Shown here one piece after another: positions 37,655-42,201 of a stretch of DNA of 64,000 nucleotides. Source of the DNA: Candidatus Bathyarchaeota archaeon (GTDB lineage Archaea; Thermoproteota; Bathyarchaeia; Bathyarchaeales; Bathycorpusculaceae); contig JAAYYI010000040.1 in NCBI GenBank assembly GCA_012515445.1, forward strand, positions 1-64,000. Reading direction: 5' to 3'. Made by a program: the position numbers and the translations under genes. Under the pieces are notes generated by a model. That model was not told where the DNA came from. It worked only from the letters and a program-made list of their open reading frames with translations, and searched no databases. Position 1 is the first letter of the stretch. The number at the start of each line of letters is the position of its first letter.

Positions 37655-38152
37655 ATGGAGGAATTCGTCAGATTGAAGCTAAAAGACGGTGTAACAGCAT
37701 GGTTAAACGGGGCATTAACAGACCCCATTGTACAAATACTGGCTAAAAACAGCCAATTAACTAAAACGCAATTAGAAACGCTCCTTATTGACATTTTGTC
37801 GGAAAATATAGCGGGGAAAGAGCTAAAGTACGATGAAAAGGCCGCCTTAAGGCTAACAAGGGCTAAAATAAGCCGCGGATCGTTTAATAGGACTTTAAAA
37901 CAGTCCCGTGAAAACGTCATAAAATCTATCTACACAGTGCTATTACTAGGTTATTTGGGGGTTTTTGAGAGCACAACTCTTGACCCGTACTTAGAAATAG
38001 CTAACAAATTGCACGAATATGTCGAGGCACACCAGGACATACCCAGCAAGGAAGAGGAACTAAAAGATCACGTAAAACTCATAGAAATCATCAGAAATGA
38101 GCTCGAAACGAGCCTAAAACGGCTTTCTAGCCCATCACAAGAGCCTTTGTGA
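37655..38152 (+). CDS. Unrecognised helical protein flanked by TCAC/GTGA motifs
   Basis: 165 residues, almost wholly helical and highly charged. The middle holds KYDEKAALRLTRAKISRGSF, which has a ribbon or HTH-like look, and KQSRENVIKSIYTVLLLGYL. The end is a possible coiled coil (KEEELKDHVKLIEIIRNELE). There is no signal peptide or membrane segment. The stop codon lies inside the palindrome TTTGTGACGTCACAAA (38146-38161). The motif fields on both sides suggest a DNA-binding or segregation-type protein acting on its own region, which is inference. Confidence 0.6.
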   Translation: MEEFVRLKLKDGVTAWLNGALTDPIVQILAKNSQLTKTQLETLLIDILSENIAGKELKYDEKAALRLTRAKISRGSFNRTLKQSRENVIKSIYTVLLLGYLGVFESTTLDPYLEIANKLHEYVEAHQDIPSKEEELKDHVKLIEIIRNELETSLKRLSSPSQEPL

Positions 38153-38489
38153 CGTCACAAATCACAATTTTTCCCATGCTTTTCCTTGATTTTTTAGGAA
38201 GTAAATCACGCGTCACATATCACATTTTAACATGCCCTGTTTGCCAAAAGAAGCTTAATTTAGACGTATCTTCAAGTATATCTAAATCACAGATTGACGT
38301 TATTATGCATTTATGTGATGTGTGACGTCATAGTTAGGCTCTTTTAGGCCACCGATATCCTTAAATTTCCATGGAATATACTGTGATGTGTGATGCAACC
38401 GCTAAAATCACGTGTAACAATCACAAATCACGTAGAATCACACCGAATAGCCGTTGCGTCACGGATAAATCACAGGTGAAAGCATCACG
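38133..38489. repeat. Cluster of TCAC/GTGA motifs, right part
   Basis: About eighteen TCAC or GTGA words occur in 350 bases, including the perfect 16-bp palindrome TTTGTGACGTCACAAA (38146-38161), ATCACGCGTCACATATCACA near 38205, TGTGATGTGTGACGTCA near 38314, TGTGATGTGTGATG near 38382, and five AATCAC words at 38406-38442. The density far exceeds chance. It fills the gap before the membrane-anchored winged-helix gene. Confidence 0.65.
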
Positions 38490-39398
38490 GTTGACCTCAC
38501 ACTGGTAATCTTAGCCGTACTATTAACAGTAACAGCGGTAGCATCATACGAATACTACCGCCAAATACGCAAAGTACAGCACCAATACGAGGCAACCGTA
38601 CAGGAATACGAAAAAACCCACCAGCAATACGAACAAAGCTACCTGCAATACCAACTGAGTTTACAGGAATATGCTAAAGCAAAAGACTTCTTAGGCGATA
38701 TAGTGCTAAGTTTCGGCCGCGAACTTAAGCGTGAATCAGAAAAGTTTGACACTATGCTGTCAAAGGTCGAGGGCAGCTACAGCACCGCGGACGCCAGCTA
38801 TCGAAAAGTAGAGAGACTAGAAAACAAGATCGAGCCGATAGAGACACAGCTCATCGCCATCACACAAACCCATCGGGAACTCACACAGAGCATCACAGCG
38901 AACTTGGCAGAAAACATACAAAGTAACACTGCCGTAAAGGCTGAGTTAACCAGTGAAATGTTAACGCTACAGACTAAGTTGCAGGAACTCGTATTGGCAC
39001 AGGAAGCAGCCAAAGCAAAGATGACGGGCTTAGATGAACAAGTCCAGAAGCTAGCCGCAGCCCCACCGCAGATACAGGAAATTAGAACCGAAGTTGTGTT
39101 GCCGGCTGTTCCCATCAAACGTGACAAGGCCTTGGCGGCGTTGACTGAGACAGAAATCGTGGTGCTGGAAATGCTTTCAAAGGAAGGAGCTAAGACGGCG
39201 CCTGAGATTAAGGAGAGGGTGGGGCTTAGCCGAGAGCATACGGCCCGGTTGATGAAGAAGATTTATGAGGAAGGTTATGTGGAGAGGGAGGCAGGTAAGA
39301 TTCCGTTCCGTTACACGATAAAGAAGGAGATGGAGGCGCTGCTGCAAAAGACCGAATCTACGCCCCCGTCGCCTCCGCCGACAGCGCCGTCTGTGTAA
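38484..39398 (+). CDS. Membrane-anchored coiled-coil protein with C-terminal winged helix
   Basis: The ORF track starts at a GTG (38703), but the frame stays open to 38469. The extra codons encode one clear membrane helix (TVDLTLVILAVLLTVTAVAS) followed by Tyr/Gln-rich repeats (QYEATVQEYEKTHQQYEQSY). From the ATC at 38484 the protein has 304 residues: membrane helix at 3-23, long coiled coil to about 215, then a MarR-like winged helix (LTETEIVVLEMLSKEGAKTA, LSREHTARLMKKIYEEGYVE) and a proline-rich tail. GGTGA lies 4 bases before the ATC, so an AUC start is possible; a frameshift near the start is the alternative. Confidence 0.7.
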   Translation: MTVDLTLVILAVLLTVTAVASYEYYRQIRKVQHQYEATVQEYEKTHQQYEQSYLQYQLSLQEYAKAKDFLGDIVLSFGRELKRESEKFDTMLSKVEGSYSTADASYRKVERLENKIEPIETQLIAITQTHRELTQSITANLAENIQSNTAVKAELTSEMLTLQTKLQELVLAQEAAKAKMTGLDEQVQKLAAAPPQIQEIRTEVVLPAVPIKRDKALAALTETEIVVLEMLSKEGAKTAPEIKERVGLSREHTARLMKKIYEEGYVEREAGKIPFRYTIKKEMEALLQKTESTPPSPPPTAPSV

Positions 39399-39680: not shown

Positions 39681-39727
39681 TGTGAAAAACTGTGAAACAC
39701 TGTGAACAAGTTGTGAAGTTGTGTGAA
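39681..39727 (+). repeat. Five helically phased TGTGAA direct repeats
   Basis: TGTGAA starts at 39681, 39691, 39701, 39712 and 39722. The spacing of 10-11 bases puts all five on the same face of the helix, as in iterons. The array lies just past the 3' end of the winged-helix gene (stop at 39741), about 500 bases from the predicted origin. Confidence 0.75.
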
Positions 39728-39740
39728 GCTGTTTATGACC

Positions 39741-40199
39741 CTATTTTATGATGCGTTGCTTGATTGCTGCTGGAATGTTTGGAGCAGTCTTATACTTTAG
39801 GTTGTTAGAAGTGCCTGTGCGCATAAGCATACCCTTTGACGCCATACGAGACAGATAAGTGGAGATTGTGCTTAAGCTAACGGGTTCTTTTAGTTCCTGT
39901 TCATACACAGACTGAATATCTTTAGAAGTAAACCAGATCAGTGGAAAATTCTTATGGATAACTGATTGAACTTTCTCGAAACGTGACATTGATCGGCTAG
40001 CTGGTAGTGCTGGGCTCGTGCTAAGCGATGGAGCTTCATCTTGTGATCCGCCTAGCAATTCAACAAGATCAAGCAGGCGCAGAGCTTTGTCGCGGGTCAC
40101 TTGACCCTCAAAGGCAATCGTGTATCGATTACCATCGTTGTCGAACAGCTCAACGCGCATTTTACGAGCCGGCACTAATTTGACACCTAGGTTGTTCAC
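39741..40199 (-). CDS. Winged-helix DNA-binding protein next to the predicted origin
   Basis: 152 residues. The N-terminal third is a beta/alpha region (MRVELFDNDGNRYTIAFEG). A Ser/Pro-rich linker follows, and the C-terminal half is a winged helix: FEKVQSVIHKNFPLIWFTSK, LKEPVSLSTISTYLSRMASK and KYKTAPN. The start is GTG at 40199; an ATG at 40160 is an alternative. Its promoter region carries an inverted repeat TTCACAG/CTGTGA, and related TGTGAA sites lie at both ends of the gene, which suggests self-regulation. It is not a known initiator family I can name. Confidence 0.7.
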   Translation of the reverse strand: MNNLGVKLVPARKMRVELFDNDGNRYTIAFEGQVTRDKALRLLDLVELLGGSQDEAPSLSTSPALPASRSMSRFEKVQSVIHKNFPLIWFTSKDIQSVYEQELKEPVSLSTISTYLSRMASKGMLMRTGTSNNLKYKTAPNIPAAIKQRIIK

Positions 40200-40210
40200 A
40201 ACTCTACTGC

Positions 40211-40236
40211 TTCACAGCATATAACTGTGATGGTGA
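40211..40236. promoter_or_regulatory. Operator-like palindrome over a promoter
   Basis: TTCACAGCATATAACTGTGA followed by TGGTGAA: the half sites CACAG and CTGTG flank a minus-strand TATA (TTATATGC). It lies just upstream of the GTG at 40199, so a protein bound there would block transcription of the winged-helix gene. It shares TGTGA/TTCACA with the phased array. Confidence 0.6.
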
Positions 40237-40367
40237 ATCAGGGCATTGTAAAAAGCTCAATTTGAGCATATTTTTGGTATAGAGTAGTTTTTTGGTTTGA
40301 TTATGGGATTACCAGCTTCACATGTTCTGTAACGACAAAATAGCTTATCTTTCACGGTTAGATCGGG

Positions 40368-40391
40368 TTTTCCAGTAGAAGTCAAGGGGTG
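40368..40391 (+). other. ORB-like origin recognition box 1
   Basis: TTCCAGTAGAAGTCAAGGGG followed by TG. It matches the archaeal ORB/mini-ORB layout (TTCCAGTGGAAAC...GGGGT). It lies on the orc1-distal side of the AT-rich stretch. Confidence 0.75.
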
Positions 40392-40477
40392 CCACCTTCA
40401 CTGTATACAAGCAGAATTTGGGTAAATTACAGAAAACGAGGCTTGTTAAGTAGCTGATTTTTTGCTATTTCACACAT

Positions 40478-40495
40478 ATTCACAGTTTTGTGAAT
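40478..40495. repeat. Inverted repeat ATTCACA-GTTT-TGTGAAT
   Basis: A perfect 7-bp dyad with a 4-base spacer, followed by another TGTGAA. It is the same word as the phased array at 39681-39727, in palindromic form, inside the predicted origin region. Confidence 0.65.
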
Positions 40496-40708
40496 GTGAA
40501 GCGAAGCCAAACTTAACAATGAAAAAGTCTTGAAAACTCTGTAGGAAGATATTGACCGAGTTAGTTGCCTACTTGGTGGATTTCGTTGGGTTTTTCCATG
40601 GTTTTAGGGGTTTAGCCACACCCCTATGTTTCCAGTCGAGTATTTTACGGTAAAAAAGAATTTTGGGAAGCCCTGAAAAGATATTCAGAGGCTCTGTCTA
40701 ATTTCTTG

Positions 40709-40800
40709 GATAACTACACTTAATATACTAAATGTCAATTAACTATTTAGAGTATATATTTTCATATATTAATAATAAGAATTATCTTTATAGCAACTAT
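40709..40800. other. AT-rich stretch, candidate duplex unwinding element
   Basis: About 90 bases, overwhelmingly A and T (TTAATATACTAAATGTCAAT, AGTATATATTTTCATATATT and so on). It lies between ORB1 and ORB2. In archaeal origins the unwinding element lies between or beside ORBs. Confidence 0.65.
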
Positions 40801-40802
40801 TT

Positions 40803-40826
40803 TTTCCAGTAGAAATCAACGGGTGT
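40803..40826 (+). other. ORB-like origin recognition box 2
   Basis: TTCCAGTAGAAATCAACGGG followed by TG. It differs from box 1 at two positions over 22 bases, in the same orientation, immediately right of the AT-rich stretch. The identity between the two boxes is unlikely by chance. Confidence 0.8.
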
Positions 40827-40977: not shown

Positions 40978-42201
40978 ATGGGAAACTCTATACTAGATGA
41001 CGTATTCGACAGCTTCGTTAACGGCGCAAAACTATTCAAAGACCGCGAAGTCCTAAGACACGACTACCTACCAGAAAAGCTCCCACACAGAGAAGATCAA
41101 ATCCGACTATTAGGCTCAACAGTAGCACCTGTATTGAAAAACGCAAGATGCTCAAACATCTTCATCTATGGCAAAACGGGAACGGGAAAAACAGCTGTCG
41201 CAAAATACGTCCTAAGTCACCTTGAATCAAAAGCCAAAGAGTACGGTGCCCAAGTAAGATTCTGCTACGTTAATTGCAGAATGACTGGCTCGGAATATCG
41301 AGTTTTCGCAGCCCTAAGCCAAAGCGTAGGACTATCAATTCCATTTACTGGTTTATCAGTCGGTGAGGTTTTCGACAGATTCCGCACGGGCTTAGACCAG
41401 TCTCGCATAATATTCATAATTGTTCTGGATGAAGTTGACGCACTAATCAAGGACCGGGGCGACGCATTCATGTACGAACTTACCAGAATCAACGAAACAC
41501 TCCGCCAGAGCAAAGTCTCAATCATCGGCATCTCAAACGATCTGCGCCTAAAAGAATTTCTTGACCCAAGAGTCTTCAGCTCCTTAAGCGAAGAAGAACT
41601 CGTATTCCGCCCATACGACGCAGGAGAACTCCGAAATATCCTTCTTGAACGCTCAAAACTTGCGTTCCAAGATGGCGTGCTATCCGAATCGGCGCTAAGC
41701 ATCTCTTCTGCTTTGGCTGCAGCTGAGCATGGCGACGCCAGACGTGCACTTGATCTTTTACGTGTAGCAGGCGAAGTGGCTGAACGTGCAGGCGCAAAAG
41801 CAGTAACAGAGGAACATGTCCGCCAAGCCGAGAAGCATATTGAGCACAACCGCGTTATCGAAGCCCTCAAAAACCTCACATTACACTCGAAACTGGTGCT
41901 GCTAAGCGTTTATCACCTAAACAAGTCAAGTGCATCAACCGGCGAAATCTATGAAGTCTACAACGAACTCTGCGGCGAAATGGGCGCTGGACTACTAACT
42001 CAGAGACGCTTGAGCACTTTAGTTAACGAGCTTGACACCATGGGGTTAGTGAATGCCCGCGTTGTCAGTATGGGACGCTATGGCCGAACAAAAAAGATAC
42101 GGCTAGAAATCAGCCGCGGCTTAATCAAAGACGTGTTTGGCGACGATAACCGTTTTAGCGAATTACTAAAGTATGAACCTAAATGCCTGCACAAAGAGTA
42201 A
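40978..42201 (+). CDS. orc1/cdc6: Orc1/Cdc6 replication initiator
   Basis: 407 residues. The AAA+ ATPase domain has Walker A GKTGTGKTAVAKYV, Walker B IIFIIVLDEVDAL, sensor 1 GISNDLRLKEFLDPR and sensor 2 EHGDARRALDLLRVAGE. The C-terminal winged helix (STGEIYEVYNELCGEM, LLTQRRLSTLVNELDTMG) binds origin boxes. It marks origins and helps load MCM. ORB-like boxes just upstream fit its family's usual arrangement next to oriC. It is convergent with the PolD small subunit gene, stops 3 bases apart. Confidence 0.96.
   Translation: MGNSILDDVFDSFVNGAKLFKDREVLRHDYLPEKLPHREDQIRLLGSTVAPVLKNARCSNIFIYGKTGTGKTAVAKYVLSHLESKAKEYGAQVRFCYVNCRMTGSEYRVFAALSQSVGLSIPFTGLSVGEVFDRFRTGLDQSRIIFIIVLDEVDALIKDRGDAFMYELTRINETLRQSKVSIIGISNDLRLKEFLDPRVFSSLSEEELVFRPYDAGELRNILLERSKLAFQDGVLSESALSISSALAAAEHGDARRALDLLRVAGEVAERAGAKAVTEEHVRQAEKHIEHNRVIEALKNLTLHSKLVLLSVYHLNKSSASTGEIYEVYNELCGEMGAGLLTQRRLSTLVNELDTMGLVNARVVSMGRYGRTKKIRLEISRGLIKDVFGDDNRFSELLKYEPKCLHKE

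Follow-up and report, generated by a model that had tools for sequence, protein, structure and literature searches.

The locus analysed here raises the question of why a short word, TGTGAA, is repeated five times in helical phase beside a winged-helix (wHTH) gene and near the orc1/cdc6 initiator gene in a 64,000-nt stretch of Candidatus Bathyarchaeota DNA (the window). The copies start on the plus strand at 39681, 39691, 39701, 39712 and 39722, in steps of 10, 10, 11 and 10 bp, exactly as the preliminary description of this DNA had claimed. The total number of TGTGAA words in the window is unremarkable (36 versus 38.8 expected in 64 kb), and it is their clustering that is unusual: the longest run phased at 10/11 bp comprises five copies versus one or two in 300 simulated windows, and no hexamer whatever gave a phased run of three in 40 simulated windows. 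A chance origin of the array is ruled out by this simulation, in which a phased TGTGAA run never exceeded two copies. Twelve of the 36 copies fall within 39681–40500. Throughout the 2.44-Mb assembly, single TGTGAA words occur outside the origin as well, and it is pairs and arrays alone that are confined to it. TGTGAA-N4-TGTGAA has four matches in the whole assembly, all inside the same 0.8 kb at the origin, and TTCACA-N4-TGTGAA has a single match, at 40479–40494, so that paired boxes are restricted to the origin in this genome. A search of 37–42 kb against Rfam returned no non-coding RNA family beyond one chance-level match.

The relatives of the window are Candidatus Bathyarchaeota, including Ca. 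Bathycorpusculum. Phased TGTGAA copies (two to five) at the 3′-end of the wHTH gene were found in only seven of 24 same-genus loci, and the ten phased triple matches among 32 same-genus genomes come from six genomes and all lie at this same 3′-end. Conservation of the array as such, for which the preliminary description had proposed looking near orc1 in related genomes, is ruled out beyond a subclade; the conserved boxes are located instead in the intergenic region between the wHTH gene and orc1. The label "iteron" suits the direct repeats in helical phase at 39681–39727, but the units are 6-bp boxes that elsewhere occur in both orientations and at other spacings. The spacings that recur at the origin are 9–11 bp, together with 15–16 and 20–21 bp; strict 10.5-bp phasing for all origin boxes is ruled out by the recurrent spacings of 15–16 bp and a best-fitting period of 5.7 bp. 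As far as the sequence indicates, the five-copy array is an outlying, subclade-specific cluster of a word that recurs in the origin. The proposal that it serves protein binding was thus partly borne out, in that the word is linked to the origin and the neighboring wHTH protein appears to be the best candidate binder, but the five-copy array is not the conserved element.

The region between the wHTH gene and the divergent orc1 gene is a typical archaeal oriC, with Orc1 sites (ORBs) and an AT-rich segment. The features of the array, the wHTH gene and the origin are as follows.

39681–39727, plus strand: five-box TGTGAA array, immediately beyond the 3′-end of the wHTH gene
39741–40175, minus strand: wHTH gene (144 aa, GTG start), encoding the proposed box-binding protein
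40195–40200, minus strand: TGTGAA box close to where transcription of the wHTH gene is inferred to start, in a conserved column block
40211–40216, minus strand: TGTGAA box adjoining the TATA-like element of the wHTH gene, from the alignment
40218–40225, minus strand: GTTATATG, inferred to be a TATA-like element for the wHTH gene, with boxes on both sides, in a conserved cTTATA.cTGT
40232–40237, plus strand: conserved variant box GGTGAA (ATGGTGAA), from the alignment
40317–40322, minus strand: TGTGAA box in the TACCAGCTTCACA block, from the alignment
40370–40391, plus strand: ORB1, TTCCAGTAGAAGTCAAGGGGTG, one mismatch (0.01 expected)
40469–40500: box cluster between ORB1 and ORB2, with boxes at 40469 (minus), 40479 (minus), 40489 (plus) and 40495 (plus), including the dyad at 40478–40495
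40619–40640, minus strand: ORB2, inverted (CTCGACTGGAAACATAGGGGTG on the minus strand), from the alignment
40690–40800: AT-rich segment between inverted ORBs, a candidate unwinding element (GC 18% at 40700–40799)
40804–40825, plus strand: ORB3, TTCCAGTAGAAATCAACGGGTG, an ORB match
40978–42201, plus strand: orc1/cdc6 initiator gene, divergent from the wHTH gene

The intergenic region adjoining orc1 thus contains two near-perfect ORBs, at 40370 and 40804, with one mismatch each (0.01 expected), and one inverted ORB, and the AT-rich segment (18% GC) is flanked by the inverted pair ORB2(−)/ORB3(+). The half on the wHTH side holds TGTGAA boxes at 40195, 40211, 40317, 40469, 40479, 40489 and 40495, in addition to GGTGAA at 40232, while no TGTGAA is present between 40640 and 40978. 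The perfect dyad reported at 40478–40495 was confirmed (7-bp arms, ATTCACA GTTT TGTGAAT), and the operator noted near 40211–40236 was recovered as TTCACA and GGTGAA flanking the TATA-like element at 40211–40237. What we take, from their sequences, to be both DNA polymerase D subunits are also encoded in the window.

TGTGAA boxes are found at conserved positions among the ORBs across the genus and the order, and in an alignment of 30 loci the conserved blocks that stand out are the boxes and the ORBs. An unbiased hexamer count of 85 wHTH–orc1 intergenic regions, judged against shuffles, gave two main signals, namely pieces of the ORB and TGTGAA; the latter is present in 84 of the 85 regions, with 446 copies versus 53.6 expected (approximately eightfold), counts that are not independent because the sequences are related. 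When Bathyarchaeia loci were picked by the wHTH protein alone, the divergent neighbor of its gene was orc1 in all 76 with enough flank, and the link to orc1 pointed out in the preliminary description is deeply conserved.

The bounds of the wHTH gene had been given as 39741–40199; its start is most likely the GTG at 40175, from which the protein begins MPARKMRVE, a start conserved in relatives. In the predicted structure, a beta-beta-alpha unit at the N-terminus is joined by a flexible linker to a C-terminal winged helix predicted with confidence (pLDDT about 85 for residues 65–130); the solved folds closest to this winged helix are the DNA-binding domains of Fur/Zur (Z 11.1, rmsd 2.1–2.5 over 69–70 residues). 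A sequence search yielded no known solved relative, and the score for Penicillinase_R (PF03965, BlaI/MecI), 19.3 bits, is below the curated cut-off of 22.6. Of 120 good genomes from the class, 100 have an ortholog, as do 153 of 245 genomes in the phylum sample; it is nearly always single-copy.

In ammonia oxidizers, the same layout is accompanied by a different box. All 23 Nitrosopumilaceae intergenic loci carry TGTTAA instead of TGTGAA (218 copies versus 20.0 expected), TGTGAA being down to 20 copies; the members tested are AmoA-positive, and two further families with AmoA-positive members (f58 and f61) likewise carry TGTTAA. In the recognition helix, SLST is replaced by KLSV, KLSI or KLSM in ammonia oxidizers, T103 being V, I or M, and many residues besides T103 also differ. 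Since the change of the box together with T103 is essentially one evolutionary event, it supports, and does not prove, the reading of the box by the wHTH protein. Most of the Nitrosopumilaceae origins L197–L216 keep one TGTGAA, usually in the context TGTGAAT (17 of 20 copies), and in one member of this family (G343), which has the same layout, the wHTH gene (1644546–1644926, minus strand) and orc1 are arranged back to back, the contig ends falling between them. For N. maritimus (1645 kb), one mapped origin is reported (PMC5333045).

A second DNA-binding gene with a box of its own is located on the other side of the array.

38134–38474: ten TGTGAT/ATCACA words within 340 bp, a second, different box, upstream of the transmembrane coiled-coil wHTH gene
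38487–39398, plus strand: gene for a conserved coiled-coil protein with an N-terminal transmembrane segment and a C-terminal MarR-like wHTH domain, convergent with the small wHTH gene

TGTGAT is the top-enriched hexamer upstream of this gene, forming arrays in all 70 Bathyarchaeia loci tested (384 copies versus 31.3 expected), and it is also enriched in eight ammonia-oxidizer loci (41 versus 4.6). The gene is close to the origin wHTH gene in both Bathyarchaeia and ammonia oxidizers; as each of the two has its own box, two such DNA-binding genes stand beside the origin over a deep split. Its apparent start codon is ACG (38487–38489) in the window and in many same-genus relatives, with ATG at this position in two relatives, and the window frame contains no ATG, GTG or TTG upstream of the transmembrane segment. 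A 165-aa ORF (37655–38152) with no Pfam family lies upstream of the TGTGAT array; its product resembles, by eye, that of the gene at the same place in ammonia oxidizers. Speculatively, the transmembrane coiled-coil wHTH protein is a candidate membrane tether. It is conceivable, though doubtful, that Bathyarchaeia and ammonia oxidizers share an origin-organizing module predating their split, in which a wHTH protein coating TGTGAA or TGTTAA and a membrane-anchored wHTH protein binding TGTGAT would tether the origin and control initiation.

The TGTGAA word at fixed places in the origin and the neighboring wHTH gene point to an origin control factor besides Orc1. We infer that TGTKAA boxes are probably recognized by the wHTH protein, which would repress its own gene and work alongside Orc1 as an accessory factor at the origin. 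The 144-aa protein would recognize TGTGAA boxes across the orc1-side replication origin: those around its own promoter, at the TATA-like element, would mediate autorepression, and those flanking ORB1 on either side, as well as those in the stretch from ORB1 to the inverted ORB2, would also be occupied. Acting in trans with Orc1, it may organize the ORB region or gate initiation. In the subclade of the window, it would additionally bind the phased array that follows the 3′-end of its own gene, an array that is perhaps a lineage-specific extra loading or titration cluster; this is the weakest step of the explanation.

If the boxes were plain operators, the wHTH protein would repress only its own gene and orc1 and have no part in replication. 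Boxes do flank, as this idea predicts, the conserved TATA-like element that immediately precedes the wHTH gene, but boxes are also found around the ORBs and in the intervals between them, hundreds of bases away from the start codons of both genes, and the 3′ array is not at the promoter of the wHTH gene or of orc1. Pure autoregulation moreover does not account for boxes that persist at the orc1 origin once the wHTH gene has moved: in three families (f35, f39 and f50) the gene is located away from orc1, yet three to seven TGTGAA words remain upstream of orc1 (0.3–0.5 expected). A role as operators only is thus unlikely. In another locus (L158, family f30), an ORB-like sequence and TTCACA/TCACAA words adjoin the wHTH homolog on its upstream side, with orc1 on another contig, and the origin there may sit at the wHTH gene. 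A very improbable explanation is that TGTGAA is a second, weaker site for Orc1 itself beside the ORBs, similar to mini-ORBs, as the interleaving of boxes with ORBs and the TTCAC directly after ORB1 might suggest; it does not account for genomes that have kept orc1 and ORBs and lack boxes. The average in ten genomes with no detectable wHTH ortholog is 0.8 TGTGAA (range 0–4) versus 5.7 in Bathyarchaeia with the gene (rank test, P = 3e-7, to be read loosely as kinship is ignored). In four of the ortholog-less genomes (G210, G208, G094 and G095), no TGTGAA was found in 800 bp; G210 retains its ORBs, and G210, G208 and G095, with orc1 and ORBs and no ortholog, thus have few or no boxes. Likewise, family f10, in which a distant wHTH homolog is encoded elsewhere (E about 1e-26), is almost boxless upstream of orc1 (mean 0.6), and the loci of Orc1 paralogs have almost no TGTGAA upstream. 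Family f10, keeping a homolog with hardly any boxes, also speaks against the wHTH protein as the binder, as does an outlier, G212, which has four boxes and no wHTH gene found in an assembly that is 66% complete. In six genomes (G111, G026, G195, G181, G164 and G115) the contig stops near orc1, and absence of the gene was therefore not counted as loss.

The boxes could alternatively form a centromere-like site through which the wHTH protein would tag the origin for segregation and not control initiation. Such a role would suit a single-copy, predicted DNA-binding protein with clustered sites near the origin, and an adjoining gene for a membrane-anchored coiled-coil wHTH protein with its own array; it is nevertheless distinctly unlikely, as the boxes are intertwined with the ORBs instead of being set beside the origin, and no ATPase partner was identified. 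The simplest account, an accessory origin factor that acts with Orc1 and controls its own gene, is compared with known systems below.

Iterons are long direct repeats of about 17–22 bp that accompany a cognate Rep initiator gene. Like plasmid iterons and DnaA-box clusters, the array repeats short words in phase with the helix close to the gene of an initiator, but its unit is 6 bp, boxes are found in either orientation, and the proposed binder is neither Rep nor DnaA; the wHTH neighbor protein gave no match to Rep, and the combination of long repeats with a Rep gene is not found here. BlaI/MecI are similar in a distant wHTH sequence resemblance and in dyad-type sites in their own promoter, whereas the protein encoded in the window has another N-terminal domain, an origin location and a score below the Pfam cut-off. 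Archaeal orc1-linked oriCs comprise orc1, ORBs ending in GGGGTG and an AT-rich segment between inverted ORBs (PMC4010727, PMC4164010). All of these are shared by the window. What is added is a dedicated wHTH gene and, besides the ORB, another conserved box, which reads TGTGAA or, in ammonia oxidizers, TGTTAA. WhiP, a Cdt1-related winged-helix protein, serves Sulfolobus oriC3, an origin without ORBs (PMC4010727); it too is encoded beside the origin that it serves, but the origin in the window has orc1 and ORBs, in contrast to recognition free of Orc1 and ORBs.

Descriptions of archaeal origins name ORBs, the sites of Orc1, and an AT-rich stretch, and no report of the box or of the wHTH gene at origins was found in the open-licence literature. 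As the gene, the box and the box switch are known in lineages that include cultivable ammonia oxidizers with a mapped origin, the proposed role is directly testable. The sole sequence-specific accessory origin factor found in the open-licence literature is UBP, restricted to two orders (PMC12141716). UBP is a 111-aa beta-hairpin DNA binder that recognizes the ucm motif, with more than 300 genomic sites, at origins of Sulfolobales and Desulfurococcales; its authors regard ubp as a relatively recent acquisition of these orders and raise the question of analogous proteins elsewhere among the lineages (PMC12141716). In both systems, Orc1 would be joined by a small sequence-specific protein whose recognition motif lies within the origin. 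They differ in that ucm lies inside the unwinding element, whereas several boxes are present here, all outside the AT-rich segment, and in that the wHTH gene usually adjoins the origin. With a predicted wHTH fold in one and a beta-hairpin in the other, the two proteins appear to be analogous, not homologous.
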